A stretch of DNA of 41,786 nucleotides, from IMG/VR virus record IMGVR_UViG_3300031699_000004, positions 1 through 41,786 of that record. The stretch is one strand, 5' to 3'. Under the pieces are notes generated by a model. That model had not been told where the DNA came from and ran no database searches. It saw only the letters and a program-made list of their open reading frames with translations. How positions within the stretch are numbered: the first letter of the stretch is position 1; the number at the start of each line of letters is the position of its first letter. The DNA is from a virus. The translations under genes and the position numbers were made by a program. Shown in pieces: positions 5,383-40,959 of the stretch.

Positions 5383-5581
5383 TGGACGCTGAGAGCGGTT
5401 ATGACGCCGTGGAAGGCTACAGAACGCCCGAGTGTGAGATTAACCCTACGACATCGGCTACTGGAAGCGATACGATGGCAAGAGCCGAAACGCGTGCGGC
5501 ATTGATGAGATAGAGCGGGCAGGATGGGATGCGTGCGATGCGGAGCTAAGGGCCGAGCGCCGGGGCGGGGGTGAGAAGTGA
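5382..5581 (+). pseudogene. small gene broken by a one-base frameshift
   Basis: From the ATG at 5382 (AAGGAGG upstream, TGATG overlap) the frame reads sensibly to about CEINP at 5445, then continues as poor sequence to a stop at 5513. In the frame one base back, the DNA from about 5446 reads PYDIGYWKRYDGKSRN and then IDEIERAGWDACDAEL, ending at 5581 with a GTGA overlap to the next gene. That overlap shows the second frame is the true 3' end. A single missing base near the CCC at 5443-5445 explains both halves. It may be a real mutation, a sequencing error, or rarely a recoding site. Confidence 0.7.
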
Positions 5582-5775
5582 GCTGGGGAGAACGGAGCTG
5601 CAAGCATTACTGCGCCGATTGTCCGGTAGAGAATCCCACCATCGGCACCTGCAACCCCAACTGTCCGAGCTACGAGAGCAACGGCGAACCGCCCGACACA
5701 ATTGACGGGCCAACTATACTAGGTCAATTCTTCTTGGCGAAACACAAGGCCGAGCGCGGGGACGGGGGTGAGTGA
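5578..5775 (+). CDS. small Cys-rich protein
   Basis: The 65-residue protein has six cysteines in about 28 residues (SCKHYCADCP, then GTCNPNCPSY), which suggests a metal-binding knuckle. It starts at a GTG overlapping the previous stop. The last residues (KAERGDGGE) are the same as those of the next gene because they lie in a duplicated gene-boundary sequence. Function unknown. Confidence 0.65.
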   Translation: MSWGERSCKHYCADCPVENPTIGTCNPNCPSYESNGEPPDTIDGPTILGQFFLAKHKAERGDGGE

Positions 5776-5779
5776 TGGC
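5745..5779 (+). repeat. 35-base gene-boundary repeat (copy 1)
   Basis: This segment is identical over 35 bases to 6161-6195, and a diverged version lies at about 5548-5576. Each copy encodes the C-terminal RAERxGGGE or KAERGDGGE tail, supplies the GGGGGTGA ribosome-site-like sequence, and ends at the start of the next gene. It could act as a homologous joint for swapping small genes. Confidence 0.85.
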
Positions 5780-6191
5780 CGTACATATTGGGTATGACGC
5801 AGACGGGGCTAACGAGCCAGAGGAAGCCGTGAGCGGGGAAGCAGTGATGGACGAAGCGATTGAGCGTGCGGCAAATGCTGCCGACCTGGCGTTTCAAGAG
5901 TTCCTTGCTGGTGACATGCCCGATGACTGCCAGTGGCCGTTTGTTGTCCGCGCCGCCATCAAGGCGTACTTGGCGGGGACGCCGGAAGTGAGCGACAGTG
6001 CCAGTACACAACAGCTCATTGAAGACTATAGCCAGCTTCGCAGTGCAGGTTGCGAACTGGCGTCTGCGGCCATGCGGGTGATTGGTCACTTTGATGGTTG
6101 CCACAGATTGGCGTCTGCGGTAGCTGAGTGGGCTAGGGTCGTATCCGAAGAAGGCGGCCGCAAGGCCGAGCGCGGGGACGGGGGTGAGTGA
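5775..6191 (+). CDS. hypothetical protein
   Basis: The 138-residue acidic protein has no recognised domain. It is preceded by the boundary repeat, whose GGGGGTG provides the ribosome site, and it ends inside the second copy. The ATG at 5775 is preferred to a GTG three bases earlier. The body includes AIERAANAADLAFQEFLAG and a C-terminal helical half. Composition is lower in GC than the structural genes. Confidence 0.6.
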   Translation: MAVHIGYDADGANEPEEAVSGEAVMDEAIERAANAADLAFQEFLAGDMPDDCQWPFVVRAAIKAYLAGTPEVSDSASTQQLIEDYSQLRSAGCELASAAMRVIGHFDGCHRLASAVAEWARVVSEEGGRKAERGDGGE

Positions 6192-6195
6192 TGGC
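6161..6195 (+). repeat. 35-base gene-boundary repeat (copy 2)
   Basis: Exact copy of 5745-5779 at the junction between the 138-residue and 74-residue genes. Confidence 0.85.
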
Positions 6196-6758: not shown

Positions 6759-8774
6759 TTGACCCCCTCCGCCCACTCCGTCCCCGCCGTTTGGGACGCC
6801 GCCGATCTGGAGGAACGCGAGCGGCGGTACCACTCCTGCGCGCGCGCGGCGCTCGAGCCCACGCCCGAGCTGTCGCTGGCCGAGTGGGCCGAGGATCACA
6901 TCGAACTGCCGGAGACCGAGCCGATCCCCGGCCGGCTGGACCTGGACTACTCGCCGTACATGCGCGGCGTCCTGGACCTCTTCAGCAACCCTGACGTGGT
7001 CGAGGTCACGATGGTCAAGAGCACGCAGGTGGGCTGGTCGCTGATGCTGGTGATACTGTCGCTCTTCACGGCCGTCTATCGCCGGGCGCGGGTGCTGCTG
7101 GTCGAGCCCAAGGACCCGGCGGCCAGGCGCTTCAACACCACGCGCGTGCAGCCTGTGCTCGACGCCTCATCGAAGATCGCGCACCTGGCGCCCCGGGGAC
7201 GCGGCCGGCGCGAGTCGCAGGTGGACTTCGCCAACGGCGCGCTGATCCGCTTCGCCGGCGCGGGCTCGCCCACGGACCTCGGCGAGATCTCCGTCCCCGT
7301 CGTGATCAACGACGAGTTCGAGAAGTACCCCAAGCGCGCGCAGCAGGAGGCCGACCCGATCAAGCTGGGCGCCGAGCGCCTGCGCTGGTGGCGCGACAAG
7401 TTGCACGTCAAGGGCACCACCCCCAGCACGGAAAGCGGCTACGCCTTCCGGGAGATGAACGCCGCGCCCTGCCAGATGCGCTACTTCGTGAAGTGTCCCC
7501 ACTGCAAGACCATCCAGGCGCTCTACTGGGACGGCGAGCCCGAGGTAATCACTCGCGAGGTCAAGGGCGAGGAGGTTCATATCCGGGTGCCCGGCCCGGC
7601 CGGCCGCATCAACTGGCCGAAGGACGAACGCGGTCACGCGCTCAACACCCCCGAGGAGATCGACGTGCAGGGCCTGGCCTGGTATGAGTGCGGCAAGTGC
7701 GAGCGCAGGTGGACCGAGCAGCAGAAGGACCGCATCATTGCCGGCGGCGAGTGGCGGGTGATCGGCGGGGGTGCGCCGCGCGGCCACGTGGGCGTGCACC
7801 TGTGGGCGGTTCTGAGTTCGCAGCTGTCATTCTCGCGCATCGCCCGGGAGTGGCTGCAGAGCGAAGGCAAGAGCGAACTGGAACAGAACTTCGTCAATTC
7901 CTGGCTGGGCCGCACCTATCGCCAGAAGGGCGACCGCCCCACGTACGAGTTCATGGTCACGCGCAAGCGCGCCGGCCGGCTCTGCGGCCAGGTACCCGAG
8001 GGCGCGCGGTTCCTCACCGCGGGGATCGACGTGCACAAGGCGATGCAGTACTGGATGGTGTGGGGCTGGGGCGCGGGCTTCACCGGTTGGCTGATCGACG
8101 CCGGGCGCGAGGACGTGGCCGCCAGCGGCGAGGATGCCTGGCAGCGGGTCTACCGGGCGGTCACCCGCGATTACCCGGTACTGACACACGACAAGGCCCT
8201 CGGCAGCCTGGCGGTGGGCGACGGCGCGGGCATCGCGCTGATGGACTCCGGCTGGTACAAGCGCCAGGACAACGACCCCGACGAGAACGTGAACGAGGCC
8301 GAGGTCATCGAGCGCTGCGCCAACTGGAACGATGCGCACGGCTCGCGCATCTTCCACCCGTCGAAGGGCGGATCGAACCGCGCGCAGTTCCCGCCGCTGA
8401 ACTTCAGCGGCAAGACCTACGACGTGACGCGCACGGGCTACAAGCTCAAACACCGGCTCGAGCTGCATGTCTTCAATCCGTGGTTCTTCAAGAAGGACTT
8501 CTACGCGCGCCTGGCGCGCCCCGGGGAGGTCGGGGGCCTATGGCTGCCGGCGGACCTCCGCGAGATCTACATGCGCCAGATGATGGCGGAGGAGCGCGTG
8601 ACCAGTCCCGACGGCAGCGAGGACTTCGAGAAGCGCGGCGAGAACCACGGCCTCGACTGCGCGGTGATGTGCCTGGCGGCGGCCTGGCGCTTCCGGCTGT
8701 ATCTCGAAGCCGGGCGCGCTGCACCGGGCGGAAGCACGCGGCTCTCCGACATCCAGAAGAACCGGAGGCGCTGA
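6759..8774 (+). CDS. terminase large subunit (GpA family)
   Basis: The 671-residue protein is the ATPase and nuclease of the DNA-packaging motor, acting at the portal of the prohead. It belongs to the lambda gpA-type (GpA) family. The ATPase has a Walker-A-like KSTQVGWS at residues 87-94 and a Walker B VVINDE ending at D185-E186. A zinc-knuckle region (CPHCK, then CGKCERRW) lies in the middle and the nuclease half follows (TAGIDVHK, then the C-terminal GLDCAVMCL). Length is close to lambda gpA (641). The TTG at 6759 directly follows the previous stop; no better start is seen. It should work with the Nu1-like protein at 4160. Confidence 0.93.
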   Translation: MTPSAHSVPAVWDAADLEERERRYHSCARAALEPTPELSLAEWAEDHIELPETEPIPGRLDLDYSPYMRGVLDLFSNPDVVEVTMVKSTQVGWSLMLVILSLFTAVYRRARVLLVEPKDPAARRFNTTRVQPVLDASSKIAHLAPRGRGRRESQVDFANGALIRFAGAGSPTDLGEISVPVVINDEFEKYPKRAQQEADPIKLGAERLRWWRDKLHVKGTTPSTESGYAFREMNAAPCQMRYFVKCPHCKTIQALYWDGEPEVITREVKGEEVHIRVPGPAGRINWPKDERGHALNTPEEIDVQGLAWYECGKCERRWTEQQKDRIIAGGEWRVIGGGAPRGHVGVHLWAVLSSQLSFSRIAREWLQSEGKSELEQNFVNSWLGRTYRQKGDRPTYEFMVTRKRAGRLCGQVPEGARFLTAGIDVHKAMQYWMVWGWGAGFTGWLIDAGREDVAASGEDAWQRVYRAVTRDYPVLTHDKALGSLAVGDGAGIALMDSGWYKRQDNDPDENVNEAEVIERCANWNDAHGSRIFHPSKGGSNRAQFPPLNFSGKTYDVTRTGYKLKHRLELHVFNPWFFKKDFYARLARPGEVGGLWLPADLREIYMRQMMAEERVTSPDGSEDFEKRGENHGLDCAVMCLAAAWRFRLYLEAGRAAPGGSTRLSDIQKNRRR

Positions 8775-8776
8775 GC

Positions 8777-9085
8777 ATGGCGCTGCGGTTGAGCGATCTC
8801 CAGAACCGCGACGAGAGCGACGTGCTGCGCTGCCGTGCCTGCGGATGCCGGCACATCGACGGCGGCAGGTGCCGGCATTGCGGCGCCCCGGTGGTGCGCG
8901 GCGAACAGCGGGGCGCGCCAGAGGAAGAGGGCGTGGGTATCGCCTGTCCGGGTTGCGGTGGGATGCGCACGGTGCCTATCCGCAAGCGCGCGATGCCAGG
9001 CCGGGTGATCCGTCGCCGGGAATGCCTCAGCTGCGGACGGCGATGGAACACCGTCGAAATGACCCGCCAGGACGAGATAGGCTAG
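8777..9085 (+). CDS. double zinc-ribbon protein
   Basis: The 102-residue protein has two zinc ribbons: CRACGCRH/CRHCG in the first half and CPGCGG/CLSCGRRW in the second. The second half, with RRRECLSCGRRWNTVEM, resembles the NrdR zinc ribbon but lacks the ATP-cone domain. A zinc-ribbon gene between the large terminase and the joining protein is unusual for lambda-like phages. It follows the terminase by two bases and is followed by the oppositely oriented module. Possible nucleic-acid binder. Confidence 0.7.
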   Translation: MALRLSDLQNRDESDVLRCRACGCRHIDGGRCRHCGAPVVRGEQRGAPEEEGVGIACPGCGGMRTVPIRKRAMPGRVIRRRECLSCGRRWNTVEMTRQDEIG

Positions 9086-9094
9086 CGCCGGCGC

Positions 9095-9418
9095 TCAGTC
9101 CTGCAGCGATGTCCACAGCGCATAGAGGTGGTGCGCGGGGATGTTGCGCCCGCCCTCCCAGCCCTCCCATGTGCGCGGCGAGACCCCATCAGGCAGCAGT
9201 TCCCAGCCGCGCAGATCGCGTAGCGCCTGCAGCCAGCCGCGCTGCGCCTCGCGCTGGTCGAGGCTGCTCAGCACCCCGCCGCCGCCGCACCACCATCCGG
9301 TCGGCAGCCAGAGCAGCGCCTGCGTGCCGACTGTCCCGCAGAGCAGCGCGCCCTGCGGCAATGGCGACCGGCCCCAGTATTTGCGGCCAGCCTTGGTATC
9401 AACGGTTATGGTGCTCAT
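9095..9418 (-). CDS. small HTH-like regulator in leftward module
   Basis: The 107-residue protein is encoded opposite to the head genes. Its C-terminal 40 residues (VSPRTWEGWEGGRNIPAHHLYAL) look like the recognition end of a Cro/CI-type helix-turn-helix; the N-terminal half is Gly/Trp-rich and unrecognised. The ATG overlaps the upstream partner's stop (ATGA). The shared promoter contains a palindrome between its -10 and -35, so autoregulation is likely. Expression in a prophage as an independent 'moron' is an inference. Confidence 0.6.
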   Translation of the reverse strand: MSTITVDTKAGRKYWGRSPLPQGALLCGTVGTQALLWLPTGWWCGGGGVLSSLDQREAQRGWLQALRDLRGWELLPDGVSPRTWEGWEGGRNIPAHHLYALWTSLQD

Positions 9419-9675
9419 GCCGGCCACGCAATCGCGGCCAAGCGATCCAGCTCGACCTGCACATCCGCAGGCTTGTTAGGGCCGGCGTGCTTACGGTTGA
9501 GCGCGCACCAAGCCAACTCGGCGTCGTACTTGGTCATCGCCGCCTTGGATTCCGCGCGGTGCGCCGGCGTCATGGTCCAGGCATCGCGGCGATTTGCGGC
9601 CACGTCTCCATGATCAGTGGCGGCTGTCTCGCGACTGTCGTCGTAGCGGGCGTCATTGTCAGGTCTGCCGGTCAT
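9415..9675 (-). CDS. first gene of leftward module, unknown function
   Basis: The 86-residue charged protein (MTPAHRAESKAAMTKYDAEL in its centre) has no known domain. The ATG is preceded by a strong GAGGAGG ribosome site and by a sigma70-like promoter. It is coupled to the HTH-like gene by a four-base overlap, an arrangement also seen in toxin-antitoxin and immunity pairs. There is no specific evidence for either. Confidence 0.6.
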   Translation of the reverse strand: MTGRPDNDARYDDSRETAATDHGDVAANRRDAWTMTPAHRAESKAAMTKYDAELAWCALNRKHAGPNKPADVQVELDRLAAIAWPA

Positions 9676-9702
9676 CTCGTATCCTCCTCACTGCGTCCAC
9701 CT

Positions 9703-9732
9703 ATAATATACGCAAATTTTGCGGGGAGTCAA
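9703..9732 (-). promoter_or_regulatory. sigma70-like promoter of leftward module
   Basis: On the minus strand a TTGACT -35 (9727-9732) is followed by TATTAT (9703-9708, 18-base spacer) or TATATT (9705-9710, 16-base spacer). Both -10 options match consensus at five of six positions. It lies just upstream of the gene starting at 9675 and is AT-rich against a GC-rich background. Confidence 0.75.
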
Positions 9733-9755
9733 CGCAAAATCCCGCAAAAAATGCG
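9711..9755. promoter_or_regulatory. operator-like palindromes
   Basis: A perfect 13-base palindrome (CGCAAA-T-TTTGCG, 9711-9723) sits inside the leftward promoter spacer. Further CGCAAA half-sites occur at 9733-9739 and in an imperfect copy at 9743-9755. This is the layout of a repressor operator, probably for the HTH-like protein encoded at 9095-9418. Confidence 0.6.
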
Positions 9756-9817
9756 TATCCCCGTTTTTCGCGCGGCGGCGCGATTCTGGCGGTTCGGGCC
9801 GCCCCAGTGATATAAAC

Positions 9818-9831
9818 CGCAGTATACTGCG
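9818..9831. promoter_or_regulatory. 14-base perfect palindrome upstream of head-joining gene
   Basis: CGCAGTATACTGCG is a perfect palindrome in the 217-base gap between the divergent units. It is flanked by GATATAA repeats at 9809 and 9841. TATACT within it would match a -10 box, but no good -35 is visible. It may be an operator controlling rightward transcription. Confidence 0.45.
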
Positions 9832-9892
9832 CTTCGCCGCGATATAACCCCCAACGCCTAAATGCCGCCGTCGGTGCCGTCGATTATCGAGC

Positions 9893-10138
9893 ATGGCAAA
9901 AACGGCGTCCGAGATGGTCACCCTCATCGACGAAGCTATCGAGAGCATTCTCGGCAGCCAGTTCGAGAGTGTGAACGTCAACGGCCGCAGCTTCACGAAG
10001 CACGATCTCGGCGACCTGCGCGAGATGCGCGACTACTACCAGCGCCAGGCGCTACGCACCGCCAGCACCGCTCCGCGCGGGCTGCGCACTTCTCCCATAC
10101 ACCTGGGCGGCACGGTCACCACCGGGGGACAGGACTGA
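9893..10138 (+). CDS. head-tail joining protein, gpW-like
   Basis: The 81-residue protein has the size, helical N-terminus (EMVTLIDEAIESILGSQFESVNVNGRSFTKHDL) and position, between terminase and portal, of lambda gpW. gpW binds the portal after packaging and provides the tail attachment site. The ribosome site is weak. The stop overlaps the portal start. The assignment rests on family pattern and synteny. Confidence 0.72.
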   Translation: MAKTASEMVTLIDEAIESILGSQFESVNVNGRSFTKHDLGDLREMRDYYQRQALRTASTAPRGLRTSPIHLGGTVTTGGQD

Positions 10139-11709
10139 TGACTCTGGCCATCGTCCCCGTCGACCGCGCGAAGATGGAGAACCCCTTCTACCTGCCGGCG
10201 CCAGTGCAGGCCTCCCAGGCGAAGATCCTCAACGAGTTCGGCCGGCCGCTGCAGCGTGTTGCCCGCATGCCGGCGCGGGCCAGCTACGACGCCGCGCGCT
10301 CCGGCAACCAGACCAGGAACATCTGGACCGAGGCCACCGGCCGCAGCGCCGAGGCCGAGGCCACCCCGGCGATCCGCGCGACGCTGCGCAACCGCGCGCG
10401 CTACGAGATCCGCAACAACAGCTACTTCCGCGGGATGGTCGACACCAAGGCCTACTTCACAGTCGGGCGCTGCCCGCGGCTGCAGATCGACACCGACGAC
10501 GAGCAGTACGACCGGACGAAAGAGCGCATCTTCCGCGACTGGGCCGACGAGATTCGCCTCGGCGAGAAGGCCCGGCTCAGCGAGGTCCAGATGGTCGAGA
10601 GCGGCGAGGCCATATGGGTGCTGGTCCACAACCCGCGCCTGCGCAGCCCGGTCAAGATGGACGTCATTCTCATCGAGCCCGACCGGCTCACCGGGCAGAT
10701 GGACAAGCTGCGCCGCAAGCGCTACGCCGACGGCATCGAGTACGACGAGGTCGGCAACCCGATCTCGTACGACATCCTCGACGACCACCCCGGGGGCACG
10801 ATGTCCGCCGCGGCATTCGGGGCGGCCGGCAGGCGTAGCTATACGCCCTACGCCGCCGACCAGGTCATTCACCGTTTCCGGCGCACTCGCCCGGGGCAGA
10901 AGCGCGGCGTCACCGAGCTGGCCCCCGTGCTCAACCTCGGCGCCATGCTGCGGCGCTATTCGCTCGCGGTACTGACCGCCGCCGAGACGGCCAGCGCCTA
11001 CAGCTTCATCCTCCAGAGCACCGGGGCGAACGCCGAGCCGGTGACCATCGACCCGATGGACGTGATCGACCTGGAGTACGGCAGCGGGCTGACCCTGCCG
11101 GCCGGCTGGGAAATGAAGCAGATGAACCCCCAGCAGCCGGCGACCACGTACAAAGAGTTCAAGCGCGAGGTCCTCAACGAGGTCGCGCGCTGCATCATGA
11201 TGCCGCTGAATATCGCCCTGGGCGACAGCAGCGGCTACAACTACGCCTCGGGTCGCCTGGACCACCAGGCCTTCTTCAAGCGCATCTCGATTGACCAGTA
11301 CGAACTGGGGCTGGACCTCAGCACCATCTACCGCCGGTGGAACGACGTCTACCAGTTCACGCCCGGCGCGCTGCGCTCCAAGAGCTGGTACCCCGGCTTC
11401 GCCGAGCCGCACACCTGGCACTTCGACGGCATCAAGCACGTGGACCCCTACAAGGAAGCCATGGCCCAGGCGCTGCGCCTGCAGAACCGCACCACCACCT
11501 ACGCCATCGAGTGGGCCGAGCAGGGCATGAGCTCCGAGGAGGGCCACGAGCGCCTGGCCCGCGAGGTCAGGAAGCTCCGCGAAGACGGCCTGCTGCCCAA
11601 GGACCCGACCGGCGAGGCCGGTGCGCCGGCGGCGGCCCAGCTTAACCAGCTGGCCTGGATGATCGCCGACCACCTGGCCGACCACCTGGCTGCGCCCATG
11701 GCCGCGTGA
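10138..11709 (+). CDS. portal protein, lambda family
   Basis: The 523-residue protein forms the dodecameric DNA channel at the head vertex. It shows lambda gpB-family features: RNRARYEIRNNSYFRG near residue 100, the central VILIEPDRL and a helical C-terminal region (LDLSTIYRRWNDVYQF). The ATG overlaps the previous stop (TGATG) and follows CGGGGGACAG. An open frame extends upstream in this reading frame but overlaps the gpW-like gene and lacks protein-like sequence. Length is normal for the family (lambda gpB is 533). Confidence 0.9.
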   Translation: MTLAIVPVDRAKMENPFYLPAPVQASQAKILNEFGRPLQRVARMPARASYDAARSGNQTRNIWTEATGRSAEAEATPAIRATLRNRARYEIRNNSYFRGMVDTKAYFTVGRCPRLQIDTDDEQYDRTKERIFRDWADEIRLGEKARLSEVQMVESGEAIWVLVHNPRLRSPVKMDVILIEPDRLTGQMDKLRRKRYADGIEYDEVGNPISYDILDDHPGGTMSAAAFGAAGRRSYTPYAADQVIHRFRRTRPGQKRGVTELAPVLNLGAMLRRYSLAVLTAAETASAYSFILQSTGANAEPVTIDPMDVIDLEYGSGLTLPAGWEMKQMNPQQPATTYKEFKREVLNEVARCIMMPLNIALGDSSGYNYASGRLDHQAFFKRISIDQYELGLDLSTIYRRWNDVYQFTPGALRSKSWYPGFAEPHTWHFDGIKHVDPYKEAMAQALRLQNRTTTYAIEWAEQGMSSEEGHERLAREVRKLREDGLLPKDPTGEAGAPAAAQLNQLAWMIADHLADHLAAPMAA

Positions 11710-29462: not shown

Positions 29463-30458
29463 CTACCTTACCTCGATCTTGTCGCTCCACTCCCCGCTGA
29501 GCGCGGCGTAGTGCCGCCGGCAGACGTTCGGTGAGTTCCCCATCCACTCGGCGATCTGGTACAGGCTGACGCCCTGCTGGGCCAGCAGGCTCCCGAAGGT
29601 GTGCCGGAAGATGTTCCATCCGCACGGCTGTCCGCTGCGCTTCGACAGGTCCTCTATGTAGTGGTTGAGGTACCCCCCGATGCGGCCGGACATGATCTTC
29701 TCGCGATAGCTCGCCGGCAGGGCGTCGCTGGCGTCAGGGGTGAAGAGCGGATCGCGTTCTTTGGCGCCGGCCTTCCGGCGGGCGGCGATGTGGCTGCGCA
29801 GAACGGTCACGAGCTTCCTGTCCAGGGGCACCGACCGGCCGCGACGGGTCTTGGTCTTCCTGACGGCAAGCAGCCGGCGCTTCAGGTCGACGTCCCGGAG
29901 GTCCAGGTGGACCAGCTCCCCGAAGCGAGGCCCGGCGTAGATCGCCGTGTCCACCAGCGCCCGGTAGTAGTCTTTCCGGGAGGCCTTCAACACCGCGGCC
30001 CGGGCCTTCTTGTCGAGGTAGGAGATCTCCGGCTGGTCGGGCTCGAGCACCCGTGCCCCGTCGAGGGGGTTATCCCGCGCCCAGCCCTTGCGGACGCAGT
30101 AGGCCAGGAAGGCCCTGGTGATGAGCATGTACTGATTGTAGGTGGTCTTCGCGCCCTTCTCGAGGACGCCGGCCAGGAACTCCTCGACGCCGGCGCGTTT
30201 GAGGTCCCGGAACGTGGATACCCCTGTTTGCGCGCACAATCGCTTCAGGCGGTTGAAGTCGGTCTGCCAGGTGGTAGGTGCCACCTTGCCCTTGCGCGTG
30301 GCCATGAAGGCATCTACGGCGGCAAGGGCCGCCATTCCTGAGCGCGGCACGGTCTGATCGGGGAAGATCGCCTCGCCCCGCCGCCAGCGCTTCTGGAGAT
30401 CCTTGTGCTTGGCCCGGGCGATGGCGTCCTGCCGGGGCGACCGCAGGCGCAGGGACAT
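29463..30458 (-). CDS. int: tyrosine-recombinase integrase
   Basis: The 331-residue enzyme joins phage and host attachment sites through a covalent Tyr-DNA intermediate. An N-terminal SAM-like core-binding domain (about 45-130) is followed by the catalytic domain with R178 (YAGPRFGEL), a Lys near 203, R285-H286 (FRHTFGSLL) and nucleophile Y317 (RRHYAAL). Asn 282 and Asn 308 (WMGNSP) stand where His or His/Trp are usual. ATG at 30458 is chosen; a TTG six bases upstream is possible. It shows the phage is temperate, and it is transcribed against the tail operon. Confidence 0.92.
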   Translation of the reverse strand: MSLRLRSPRQDAIARAKHKDLQKRWRRGEAIFPDQTVPRSGMAALAAVDAFMATRKGKVAPTTWQTDFNRLKRLCAQTGVSTFRDLKRAGVEEFLAGVLEKGAKTTYNQYMLITRAFLAYCVRKGWARDNPLDGARVLEPDQPEISYLDKKARAAVLKASRKDYYRALVDTAIYAGPRFGELVHLDLRDVDLKRRLLAVRKTKTRRGRSVPLDRKLVTVLRSHIAARRKAGAKERDPLFTPDASDALPASYREKIMSGRIGGYLNHYIEDLSKRSGQPCGWNIFRHTFGSLLAQQGVSLYQIAEWMGNSPNVCRRHYAALSGEWSDKIEVR

Positions 30459-30537
30459 TCGCAAGCTGCGTCTGCGTGAGTTTCTTGCGTTTTCTCGCGC
30501 GCCGCAAATGCATGGCTATCTCACTGTCCCAAGGCAT
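30450..30537 (-). pseudogene. XRE-like HTH fragment overlapping integrase start
   Basis: A different minus-strand frame, from the ATG at 30537, encodes about 25 residues (IAMHLRRARKRKKLTQTQLA) that look like the first helices of an XRE repressor. It then runs into the integrase gene in the wrong frame. This may be a decayed repressor or a frameshifted extension of the integrase. Only the start is protein-like. Confidence 0.35.
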
Positions 30538-37791: not shown

Positions 37792-39402
37792 ATGACCGCC
37801 TGCGTCGACTTCCTTTCCGACCGCTTGAGGATCCGGTTTAAGGACTGGGACCGCGACGAATACGCGCTGTTCCTGCGGTCGAAGAAGTTGCCGGAGCACC
37901 GCCTGGACTACGACCACGAGAGCGACGTCTACGAGCTTACGGCCCCGGCCCGCTTCGCGCCGATCCTCGGCGTCGATCCGCCGTCACGGCCGGGCGGCAA
38001 GCTGCCGATATTGCCGAGTCTGTTCGACTACCAGGACTTCATGGTGCGCCGGGCGCTGGAGGCCAGGCGCTACGCGATATGGGCCGACACCGGCCTCGGC
38101 AAGACGCCCATGGGGCTGGAATTCTCCCGCCAGGCGGCGCACCGGACGGGCTCGCGCGGACTGATCATATCGCCGCTCAACATCATCGAGCAGTGGTGCG
38201 ACGAGGCGCGGAAGTTCTACGACGGCGGCTTGGAACTCGTGAAGCTGGCCAGCAAGGCCGAGCTGCGCGACTTCTGCGAGGGCGCGGCGCGCGATACATG
38301 CATAGGCATCACCAACCCCGAGAAATTCATCCCCCGCCGTGGCGAGCCGGAGCGCATGAGCGAGCTCTCGCGGCTCGGCAGCTTGGCTCTCGACGAGGCC
38401 AGCCTGCTCAAGAGCGGCGGCGGGCGTATCAAGTGGGCGCTGGTCAAGAGCGCCCGCGGCATCGAGCACAAGCTGTCATTGACCGCCACGCCGGCGCCGA
38501 ACGATACGATGGAGTACGCCTCGCAGGGTTCATTCCTCGAGAAGCTGCGTAACGAAGGTGAAATCATCTGGACGTTCTTCCGGCGAGAGAAGTCCGGCGA
38601 GTGGAAGGTCAAAGAGCACGCGCGCGAGGCATTCTACCGCTTCATGGCCGGGTGGAGCGTCTACCTGCGGCACCCGGCGCGCTACGGCTTCGCCGACAAC
38701 CTCAAAGACCTGCCCGAGCCGGAGATCCTGGTGCGGGAGATAGAGCCGACGGCCGAGCAGCGCGAAGCGGTCAGGGTGGTACCTGATTCGGCCGGGCAAT
38801 GCAGGCTCTTCGAACCGCCGAGCCTCGGGGTGGTCCAGCGCGCCAAGTTCAGCCAACTGGCCAAGGGCTTCTACTACGACGGCGGCAAGGCGGTGCCTGT
38901 CAGCAGCCGCAAGCCGGAGATCGTGGCCGGGATCGTGCGCGACGAGGTGGCGGCAGGCCGTCAGGTCCTGGTATGGACCTGCTTCGACGCCGAGAGCGAC
39001 ATCCTGGCAGAGCTGCTCTCCGATGTGGACGGGCTGGAGGTGTTGACCGGCAAGGTGCCCACCGCCCGGCGCCCGGCGATCATCGAGCGCTTCCGCAAGG
39101 GCGGCGCGCCGGCCATGATCACGCGCGCGCGGCTCCTGGGCCACGGGCTCAACTTCCAGAACTGCACCGCCATGGTGTTCAGCGGGTTCGACGACAGTTT
39201 CGAGGCTTTCTACCAGGCCGTGCGCCGCGCCTACCGCTATGGCCAGCGTTCCGTGGTGCGCGTGCATATTCCGTACATCCGCGCGCTCGAGGGCGTGGTG
39301 TGGGACAACGTCCAGGGCAAGTCCGCGGCCTTCGAGCGGGACACTGAGATCATGGAGCGCTGTTACTGCGAGGCGATGAAGGAGGTGCTTGGTGCCGCGT
39401 AG
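37792..39402 (+). CDS. SNF2/DEAD-like helicase
   Basis: The 536-residue protein is an SF2 helicase or translocase. Walker A is WADTGLGKTP with K104, and the DEAH-box equivalent is LALDEAS with D201-E202. Later motifs include SLTATPAPND (motif III) and the SF2 C-terminal GLNFQNCTAMVFSG and QAVRRAYRYGQ (motif VI). It resembles phage SNF2-like helicases used in replication or recombination. ATG preceded by GAGGAGTAG. No separate DNA polymerase or primase is seen in this phage. Confidence 0.88.
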   Translation: MTACVDFLSDRLRIRFKDWDRDEYALFLRSKKLPEHRLDYDHESDVYELTAPARFAPILGVDPPSRPGGKLPILPSLFDYQDFMVRRALEARRYAIWADTGLGKTPMGLEFSRQAAHRTGSRGLIISPLNIIEQWCDEARKFYDGGLELVKLASKAELRDFCEGAARDTCIGITNPEKFIPRRGEPERMSELSRLGSLALDEASLLKSGGGRIKWALVKSARGIEHKLSLTATPAPNDTMEYASQGSFLEKLRNEGEIIWTFFRREKSGEWKVKEHAREAFYRFMAGWSVYLRHPARYGFADNLKDLPEPEILVREIEPTAEQREAVRVVPDSAGQCRLFEPPSLGVVQRAKFSQLAKGFYYDGGKAVPVSSRKPEIVAGIVRDEVAAGRQVLVWTCFDAESDILAELLSDVDGLEVLTGKVPTARRPAIIERFRKGGAPAMITRARLLGHGLNFQNCTAMVFSGFDDSFEAFYQAVRRAYRYGQRSVVRVHIPYIRALEGVVWDNVQGKSAAFERDTEIMERCYCEAMKEVLGAA

Positions 39403-40378
39403 GCGCAAGGGGGCCGACGCCGCCGCCGTCGAGGCCAACCGTGCTAAGGCGCGAGGGCGCAGCAGTGCTGCCGACATCGCCATTTACAACCGGGACTGCA
39501 TCGAGGGCATGCACGACGGACCGGCGGACTCGGTCGACCTGGTGGTGAGCAGCATACCCTTTGGGGCGTTGTTCATGTACTCCGGCAAGACCGAGGACAT
39601 CGGCAACAACTCCGACGGCGTGGACATGCACGCCGGGCAGTTCGGGCTGCACATGCGATTCTTCTTCCAGGAGCTGGTGCGGGTGATGGCACCAGGTGCC
39701 GTCTTCGCCTGCCATGTGCAGCAGCTGAACACTACCAAGGTGCAGCACGGCTACATGGGCATGCGGGACTTCCGCGGCGCGGTGATCACGCTGGCCCGCA
39801 ACCACGGCTTGGACCCGCATGGCGAAGTGGCCATTCCCAAGAACCCGCAGGCGGTCGCGCAGCGCCGCAAACTGCACTCGCTGATGTTCGTGACCGGCAA
39901 GCGCGACAGCCGGGCGCTGGCGCCGGCGGCCAATGATTACGTGCTCTTCTTCCGCAAGCCGGGTGAGGGTCAGGCAGTGCGCGGGCTATATGACCCCAAG
40001 GACAATCCCGAGGGATGGTTCTCGCAGGATGATTGGATCAGGTGGGCGCGTGGCGTATGGGATGACATACTCGAAATCGACGTGCTCGAGGGCTACCGCG
40101 CGGCCAGGGGCAGCGAGGAAGAGAAGCACGTCTGCCCGCTGCAACTGGAGGTTATCCGCCGGTGCATCTACCTATACAGCCGGCCGGGCGACTGCGTGAT
40201 GGACCCGTTCATGGGCATCGGCTCGACGGCCTGGGTGTGCGTCGAGACCGGCCGCTGCTGCACGGGCTTTGAACTCAAAGAGAGCTACTACCGCACGGCG
40301 CAGCGCAACGTGAAACGCGCGCTGGAGAAGTTCTCGCGGGAAGAGGTCGACCTGTTCAAGGTGAAGGGTGATAGATGA
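39392..40378 (+). CDS. phage DNA methyltransferase (SIPF type)
   Basis: The 328-residue enzyme has the catalytic motif SSIPFGA (S54-F57) in place of DPPY, a form found in phage N4-cytosine or N6-adenine methylases. The AdoMet site is DPFMGIGSTAWV from D271, and FELKESYYRTAQRN follows. It probably protects phage DNA. A second methylase is encoded at 230-1585. GTG at 39392 after GGAGGTGCTT; TTG at 39389 is possible. Confidence 0.85.
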   Translation: MPRRRKGADAAAVEANRAKARGRSSAADIAIYNRDCIEGMHDGPADSVDLVVSSIPFGALFMYSGKTEDIGNNSDGVDMHAGQFGLHMRFFFQELVRVMAPGAVFACHVQQLNTTKVQHGYMGMRDFRGAVITLARNHGLDPHGEVAIPKNPQAVAQRRKLHSLMFVTGKRDSRALAPAANDYVLFFRKPGEGQAVRGLYDPKDNPEGWFSQDDWIRWARGVWDDILEIDVLEGYRAARGSEEEKHVCPLQLEVIRRCIYLYSRPGDCVMDPFMGIGSTAWVCVETGRCCTGFELKESYYRTAQRNVKRALEKFSREEVDLFKVKGDR

Positions 40379-40959
40379 AGGCGGCCGAGGCGGAAGCCCT
40401 CGTGGATGAGTTCATGCCCTACGCCTACAAGGTCGCGCACGAGTTCTCCAAGACTCGGGGGATGAGGCATCCGGGGGTGGACATCGATGGCGCGGCGAAT
40501 GAAGCGATGGCCGAAGCGCTGCGGACCTGGAAGAAGGGCAGGGGCGCGTCGTTCAAGACCTGGCTGACGGCCAGGGTGTGCTACCGGATTCGGGACGCGT
40601 GGAGATCTGCATACAAGTACCGCTGCAACAGCCGGGGCGAGATAGTCAAGCTGCACAGCATCGAGGGATATCTCGACAAGATGACCGTGAATGGCGTGGA
40701 TCATCCGCTCTGCGCGATCCTGCCGCCGGTCCCCGCTGTCGATGTGGAGTCGCAGATGGAAGGTGTCGGAGAGGCCTGCGCGCGGCTTGAGAGGCAAATG
40801 GGGGTGTGTTTCTCGCTGCGTGAGCGCGATGTGCTTATCGCCTACATCGAGTATGGCACCTTGAAGAGAGCCGCCGAATACCTGGGGGTCAGCGAGAGCC
40901 GCGTTTGCCAGATCGTGGGCGATGTGCGCCGGCGCTGTGAGATCGCGCTGAGCAACTAA
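40375..40959 (+). CDS. phage sigma-70-like factor
   Basis: The 194-residue protein matches the sigma-70 group. Region 2 spans about residues 8-75 (FMPYAYKVAHEF, then NEAMAEALRTW and FKTWLTARVCYRIRDAW), and region 4 lies near the C-terminus (LKRAAEYLGVSESRVCQIV). It may redirect host RNA polymerase to phage promoters. It overlaps the methylase by four bases and lies just upstream of the end junction and the late genes, so it may act as the late switch. Confidence 0.75.
   Translation: MKAAEAEALVDEFMPYAYKVAHEFSKTRGMRHPGVDIDGAANEAMAEALRTWKKGRGASFKTWLTARVCYRIRDAWRSAYKYRCNSRGEIVKLHSIEGYLDKMTVNGVDHPLCAILPPVPAVDVESQMEGVGEACARLERQMGVCFSLRERDVLIAYIEYGTLKRAAEYLGVSESRVCQIVGDVRRRCEIALSN

Follow-up and report, generated by a model that had tools for sequence, protein, structure and literature searches.

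A leftward two-gene accessory module with its own promoter and predicted operators among the head genes of a temperate phage

Results

Position and coding signal of the gene pair

In the window (the whole 41,786-base stretch of phage DNA analyzed here), a leftward gene pair lies among the head genes, between plus-strand genes. The features of this region, together with the integrase, are as follows.

8777-9085, plus strand: zinc-ribbon-like gene after the terminase (102 aa), left neighbor of the module
9086-9795 (±10 bp), ~710 bp: segment missing from a related lineage, based on comparison with contigs L001 and L002
9095-9418, minus strand: gene 2 (107 aa), orphan, HTH-like C-terminus (residues ~57-107), candidate autorepressor
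9415-9675, minus strand: gene 1 (86 aa), first in the operon, orphan, candidate effector (anti-defense or other)
9703-9732, minus strand: sigma70-type promoter of the module, with -35 hexamer TTGACT starting at 9732 and -10 hexamer TATTAT (spacing 18) or TATATT (spacing 16)
9711-9723: palindrome IR1, CGCAAATTTTGCG, candidate operator within the -35/-10 spacer
9733-9740: additional half-site, CGCAAAAT, touching the -35 hexamer
9743-9755: palindrome IR2, CGCAAAAAATGCG, candidate operator just upstream of the -35 hexamer
9800-9846 (~45 bp): noncoding element of the head-gene backbone, 5' of the gpW gene and outside the module (L001 equivalent, ~7333-7380)
9818-9831: 14-bp palindrome CGCAGTATACTGCG, inside the backbone element
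9893-10138, plus strand: gpW-like gene (PHROG head-tail adaptor), right neighbor of the module
29463-30464, minus strand: integrase (PHROG integrase, E 4e-36), at the end of the tail genes

Gene 1 starts behind a GGAGG-type ribosome site, and its junction with gene 2 is an ATGA with a 4-bp overlap. In the minus frame, GC content by codon position is 0.66/0.55/0.75 for gene 1 and 0.68/0.58/0.84 for gene 2, which supports minus-strand coding in the pattern of a high-GC phage; a competing long plus-strand frame over the module is flat in this respect (0.72/0.72/0.62). The open reading frames, the overlap, and the codon-position GC thus agree with the initial annotation, which had proposed two coupled minus-strand genes inside the head operon. 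Both genes have a lower third-position GC than the terminase, portal, and capsid genes (0.92-0.94), yet one that falls inside the range of other genes in the window (0.71-0.94), so it points only faintly to a foreign origin of the pair.

Promoter and candidate operators

The module promoter is the sole sigma70-like site scoring at least 10/12 on either strand of the window, and the near-consensus promoter that had been proposed here is therefore unique. The 13-base palindrome noted earlier in its spacer was recovered as IR1, and a further one, IR2, lies upstream; their centers are 32 bp apart (~three helical turns). The pattern CGCA-N5-TGCG occurs three times in the whole window, and two of these occurrences are IR1 and IR2. 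Two such patterns never appeared together when the intergenic region was shuffled with dinucleotide content preserved (0/2000 shuffles); these predicted operators are non-random. The repeated CGCAAA half-sites described previously are likewise present, as 4 of the 22 CGCAAA/TTTGCG hexamers in the window start within 9711-9743. A scan of viral contigs for the promoter plus operators returned 23 matches, none of which has a comparable two-gene module downstream and which we take as chance.

Absence of the module from a related lineage

Using the terminase to scan viral contigs, we identified two close relatives, L001 and L002 (terminase 86% identical). These contigs share a long stretch at 99.8% identity, so we treat them as one lineage. 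In both, the stop codon of the zinc-ribbon gene runs directly into GTGATATAAACCGCAGTATACTGCGCTTCG, and the DNA corresponding to ~9086-9795 of the window is missing; neither gene 1 nor gene 2 had a match elsewhere in these two contigs, both of which are fragments. This clean absence, albeit from one lineage, indicates that the gene pair is accessory (a moron), as the initial annotation had proposed. A single comparison of this kind fits both a gain in the lineage of the window and a loss in the other. A search for further occupied or empty sites with the zinc-ribbon gene as the query returned only L001 and L002 again, and the terminase had no match in genome contigs.

Two properties by which a moron is recognized, clean absence from close relatives and possession of its own promoter, are thus found together, the former from one independent relative lineage. 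A textbook moron would also carry its own terminator, whereas no terminator-like site was found 3' of gene 2 in a scan of 8700-10200. The empty site also corrects the extent of the module, which had been given as 9095-9860: the leftward module is real, but the right part of that interval does not belong to it, and the bounds are ~9086-9795.

The right part of that interval contains the 14-base palindrome upstream of the gpW-like gene, which had been counted among the module operators. It exists, but the backbone element around it is ~96% identical in the module-less L001 and L002, compared with 71% for the adjacent gpW-portal DNA. Because the palindrome is kept in relatives without the module and the element is almost unchanged, we assign it to the head-gene backbone and rule it out as part of the module. 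The backbone element, for which no second copy was found in the window, probably serves to regulate the head operon, perhaps as a promoter or operator for the gpW, portal, and capsid genes. The window also encodes a phage sigma-70-like factor at 40375-40959 (Pfam Sigma70 r2 and r4; PHROG RNA polymerase sigma factor), and late promoters may be read by this factor; that the backbone element is among its targets is speculation.

Other features of the window

The integrase marks the phage as temperate. A perfect 35-nt direct repeat (5745-5779 and 6161-6195) lies just upstream of a DUF6527 gene, with a third copy (74%) at 5548-5582; this repeat could be the trace of a further site of shuffling. A DUF5131 family gene (1685-2590; Pfam E 3e-74) lies upstream of the terminase genes. 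Two N6/N4 DNA methyltransferases, at 53-1585 (fused to a ParB-like N-terminal domain) and 39389-40378, have a possible anti-restriction function.

Predicted gene products

No homologue of gene 1 was found in Pfam, PHROGs, NCBIfam, PADLOC, PDB, annotated phages, plasmids, or viral contigs, and no link to an Acr emerged from these searches; no toxin family match was obtained either (Pfam, NCBIfam, PHROGs, PADLOC). A single-sequence structure model is all-helical (pLDDT 70, pTM 0.27), and we give it low weight.

Gene 2 also lacked a homologue in Pfam, PHROGs, NCBIfam, PADLOC, annotated phages, plasmids, viral contigs, and genome contigs; for both genes, the contig scans for homologues were sensitive to close relatives only. 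No HTH-clan or Aca profile from Pfam, NCBIfam, or PHROGs matched gene 2, even at relaxed E, and in the same profile search Aca2 of Pectobacterium phage ZF40 matched PF08965 and HTH_31. When gene 2 was compared with sequences of solved structures, the sole relevant match was Aca2 (7ezy), which was non-significant (E 0.7; E 0.14 with the C-terminal part of gene 2). In this alignment, VSPRTWEGWEGGR of gene 2 is paired with VSPRSWQYWESGR of Aca2, whose recognition-helix motif reads VSARSWQYWESGR; the gene 2 motif VSPRTWEGWEGGRNIP resembles Aca2, and R82 is aligned with Aca2 R30, the arginine required for autoregulation (PMC8434428). Among 1.6 million six-frame residues, the XRE-type recognition-helix motif was found only in gene 2 and ZF40 Aca2, with a pattern defined post hoc, after the Aca2 match had been seen.

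From the first helix to the recognition helix, gene 2 is ~5 residues shorter than Aca2. Because of this deficit and the lack of an HTH profile match, we regard the gene 2 HTH as plausible yet shortened or divergent, and gene 2 may lack a functional HTH. The XRE-like HTH end proposed in the initial annotation is therefore upheld as regards the recognition-helix motif in common with Aca2, but not as regards an HTH profile or full length. The N-terminal half is Trp/Gly-rich, and a single-sequence structure model of gene 2 (pLDDT 40) was unusable. In terms of the Aca2/YdiL family (PF08965), the motif and the arginine are present but at the C-terminus, and PF08965 itself gave no match.

Discussion

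Comparison with known systems

Several known operons are built in a similar way. The acrIF8-aca2 operon of ZF40 is likewise a minus-strand pair of small genes opposite late genes, with the effector first (92 aa) and the regulator second (116 aa), and with a palindrome, GTTCGCGATTGCGAAC, in the -35/-10 spacer before TATAAT. ZF40 Aca2 and gene 2 have in common the motif VSxR(S/T)WxxWExGR, including the essential arginine; however, Aca2 has an N-terminal HTH and a C-terminal dimerization domain, whereas the gene 2 motif is at the C-terminus, the operator sequence differs, and gene 1 is unrelated in sequence to the ZF40 effector. The acrIF1-aca1 operon of Pseudomonas phage JBD30 is also accessory, with overlapping genes, and also sits amid head genes, between a neck gene and a head-protease gene; it is, however, co-oriented with the head genes, and its sequences are unrelated to those of the module. 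MqsRA and HigBA toxin-antitoxin operons resemble the module as read here, with the effector first, an HTH autorepressor second, and promoter operators, but the module has no toxin or antitoxin profile match. In MqsA the HTH is at the C-terminus, and in both HigBA and MqsRA operons the operators lie in the promoter.

In a survey of acr-aca operons, IR1 was inside the core promoter in every set, and several families had a similar IR2 up- or downstream (PMC9410906); in the module, IR1 is in the core promoter and IR2 just upstream. The short-gene-operon rule of AcaFinder (same strand, all genes <200 aa, intergenic distance <250 bp; PMC9765179) also describes the pair, which consists of 86- and 107-aa products encoded on the same strand with a 4-bp overlap. 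Only 15% of Aca-like genes (3% of Aca2-like genes) lie beside known acr genes (PMC9410906). Among these systems the acr-aca operon, a role that was missing from the list in the initial annotation, is the closest in architecture. No Aca profile matches gene 2. We would not class the module as an acr-aca operon, and describe it only as a self-regulated moron built like one.

Proposed function

We tentatively favor, at a little short of an even chance, the reading that the locus is a self-repressed two-gene moron in which gene 1 probably encodes an anti-defense protein, with an anti-CRISPR as the leading candidate. The pair would have been inserted into a temperate phage in opposite orientation, with the post-terminase zinc-ribbon gene on one side and the gpW gene on the other. 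When phage DNA enters a cell without repressor, transcription from the strong host-type promoter would begin immediately, providing early gene 1 product, and the gene 2 product would be made from the same mRNA by translational coupling. This product would then bind CGCA-N5-TGCG at IR1 (and IR2) and shut the promoter. Expression would thereafter stay low, also in the lysogen, and the head operon would be spared antisense transcription. Because a burst followed by shut-off and an effector-first order are typical of acr-aca operons, an inhibitor of host defense would be the most likely identity for gene 1.

The reading is limited in that both genes are orphans, and operator binding is predicted. 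Of the autoregulated moron proposed initially, the moron part is borne out by the empty site, the own promoter and operators, and minus-strand coding, and autoregulation is predicted. It is possible, though on balance doubtful, that gene 1 is the first of a new anti-defense (possibly anti-CRISPR) family and that gene 2 represents a new family of Aca-type repressors whose C-terminal HTH is shortened and whose N-terminal domain is Trp-rich.

Alternative explanations

Other functions would be compatible with parts of this architecture. Lysogenic conversion genes often carry their own host-type promoter, and a superinfection exclusion or prophage defense module, expressed in the lysogen and regulated by gene 2, would suit a temperate phage with an integrase and a leftward operon with a promoter of this kind; we consider such a module improbable, given that PADLOC returned no match, that neither a membrane domain nor a defense domain was found in the pair, and that strong self-repression suits a short burst better than steady lysogenic expression. 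A type II toxin-antitoxin operon of the HigBA/MqsRA order, with gene 1 as toxin, gene 2 as antitoxin, and repression of the operon by the C-terminal HTH together with the toxin, would account equally well for the toxin-first order, the HTH second, its C-terminal position as in MqsA, and the promoter operators, and PMC9410906 discusses a link of acr-aca operons to toxin-antitoxin systems. The absence of a toxin family match for gene 1 in the four databases and an all-helical gene 1 model that is not RelE-like, although this single-sequence model is of low confidence (pTM 0.27), speak against it, and we regard it as unlikely. The third role considered initially, that of a lysogenic immunity region, is disfavored by the position of the module amid head genes, its distance from the integrase, and its absence from relatives.

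The pair might instead be a repressor and anti-repressor acting on the head-operon element at 9800-9846, in which case it would not be an accessory trait. The backbone palindrome, ~60 bp from IR2, reads CGCA-N6-TGCG and has the same outer ends as the module operators, but its spacing is N6 rather than the N5 of IR1 and IR2; moreover, relatives without the pair keep this palindrome and its flanks nearly intact, which shows that the head operon can do without the pair, and we regard this role as very unlikely. That the open reading frames are not genes, and that the minus-strand frames and palindromes arose by chance, would be consistent with the complete lack of homologues for either protein, but is scarcely credible given the codon-position GC, the ribosome site, the ATGA overlap, the flat plus frame, and a unique promoter with correctly placed operators.

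Implications

A self-regulated phage moron is of an ordinary kind; the unusual part is that both proteins are orphans. At a minimum, the locus shows an accessory unit, presumably self-regulated, that is cleanly present or absent at one defined position in a head operon, and a relative with the empty site serves for comparison. If gene 1 blocks host defense, as in the favored reading, it would add an unrelated inhibitor family, and the new autorepressor could serve as bait for guilt-by-association searches.
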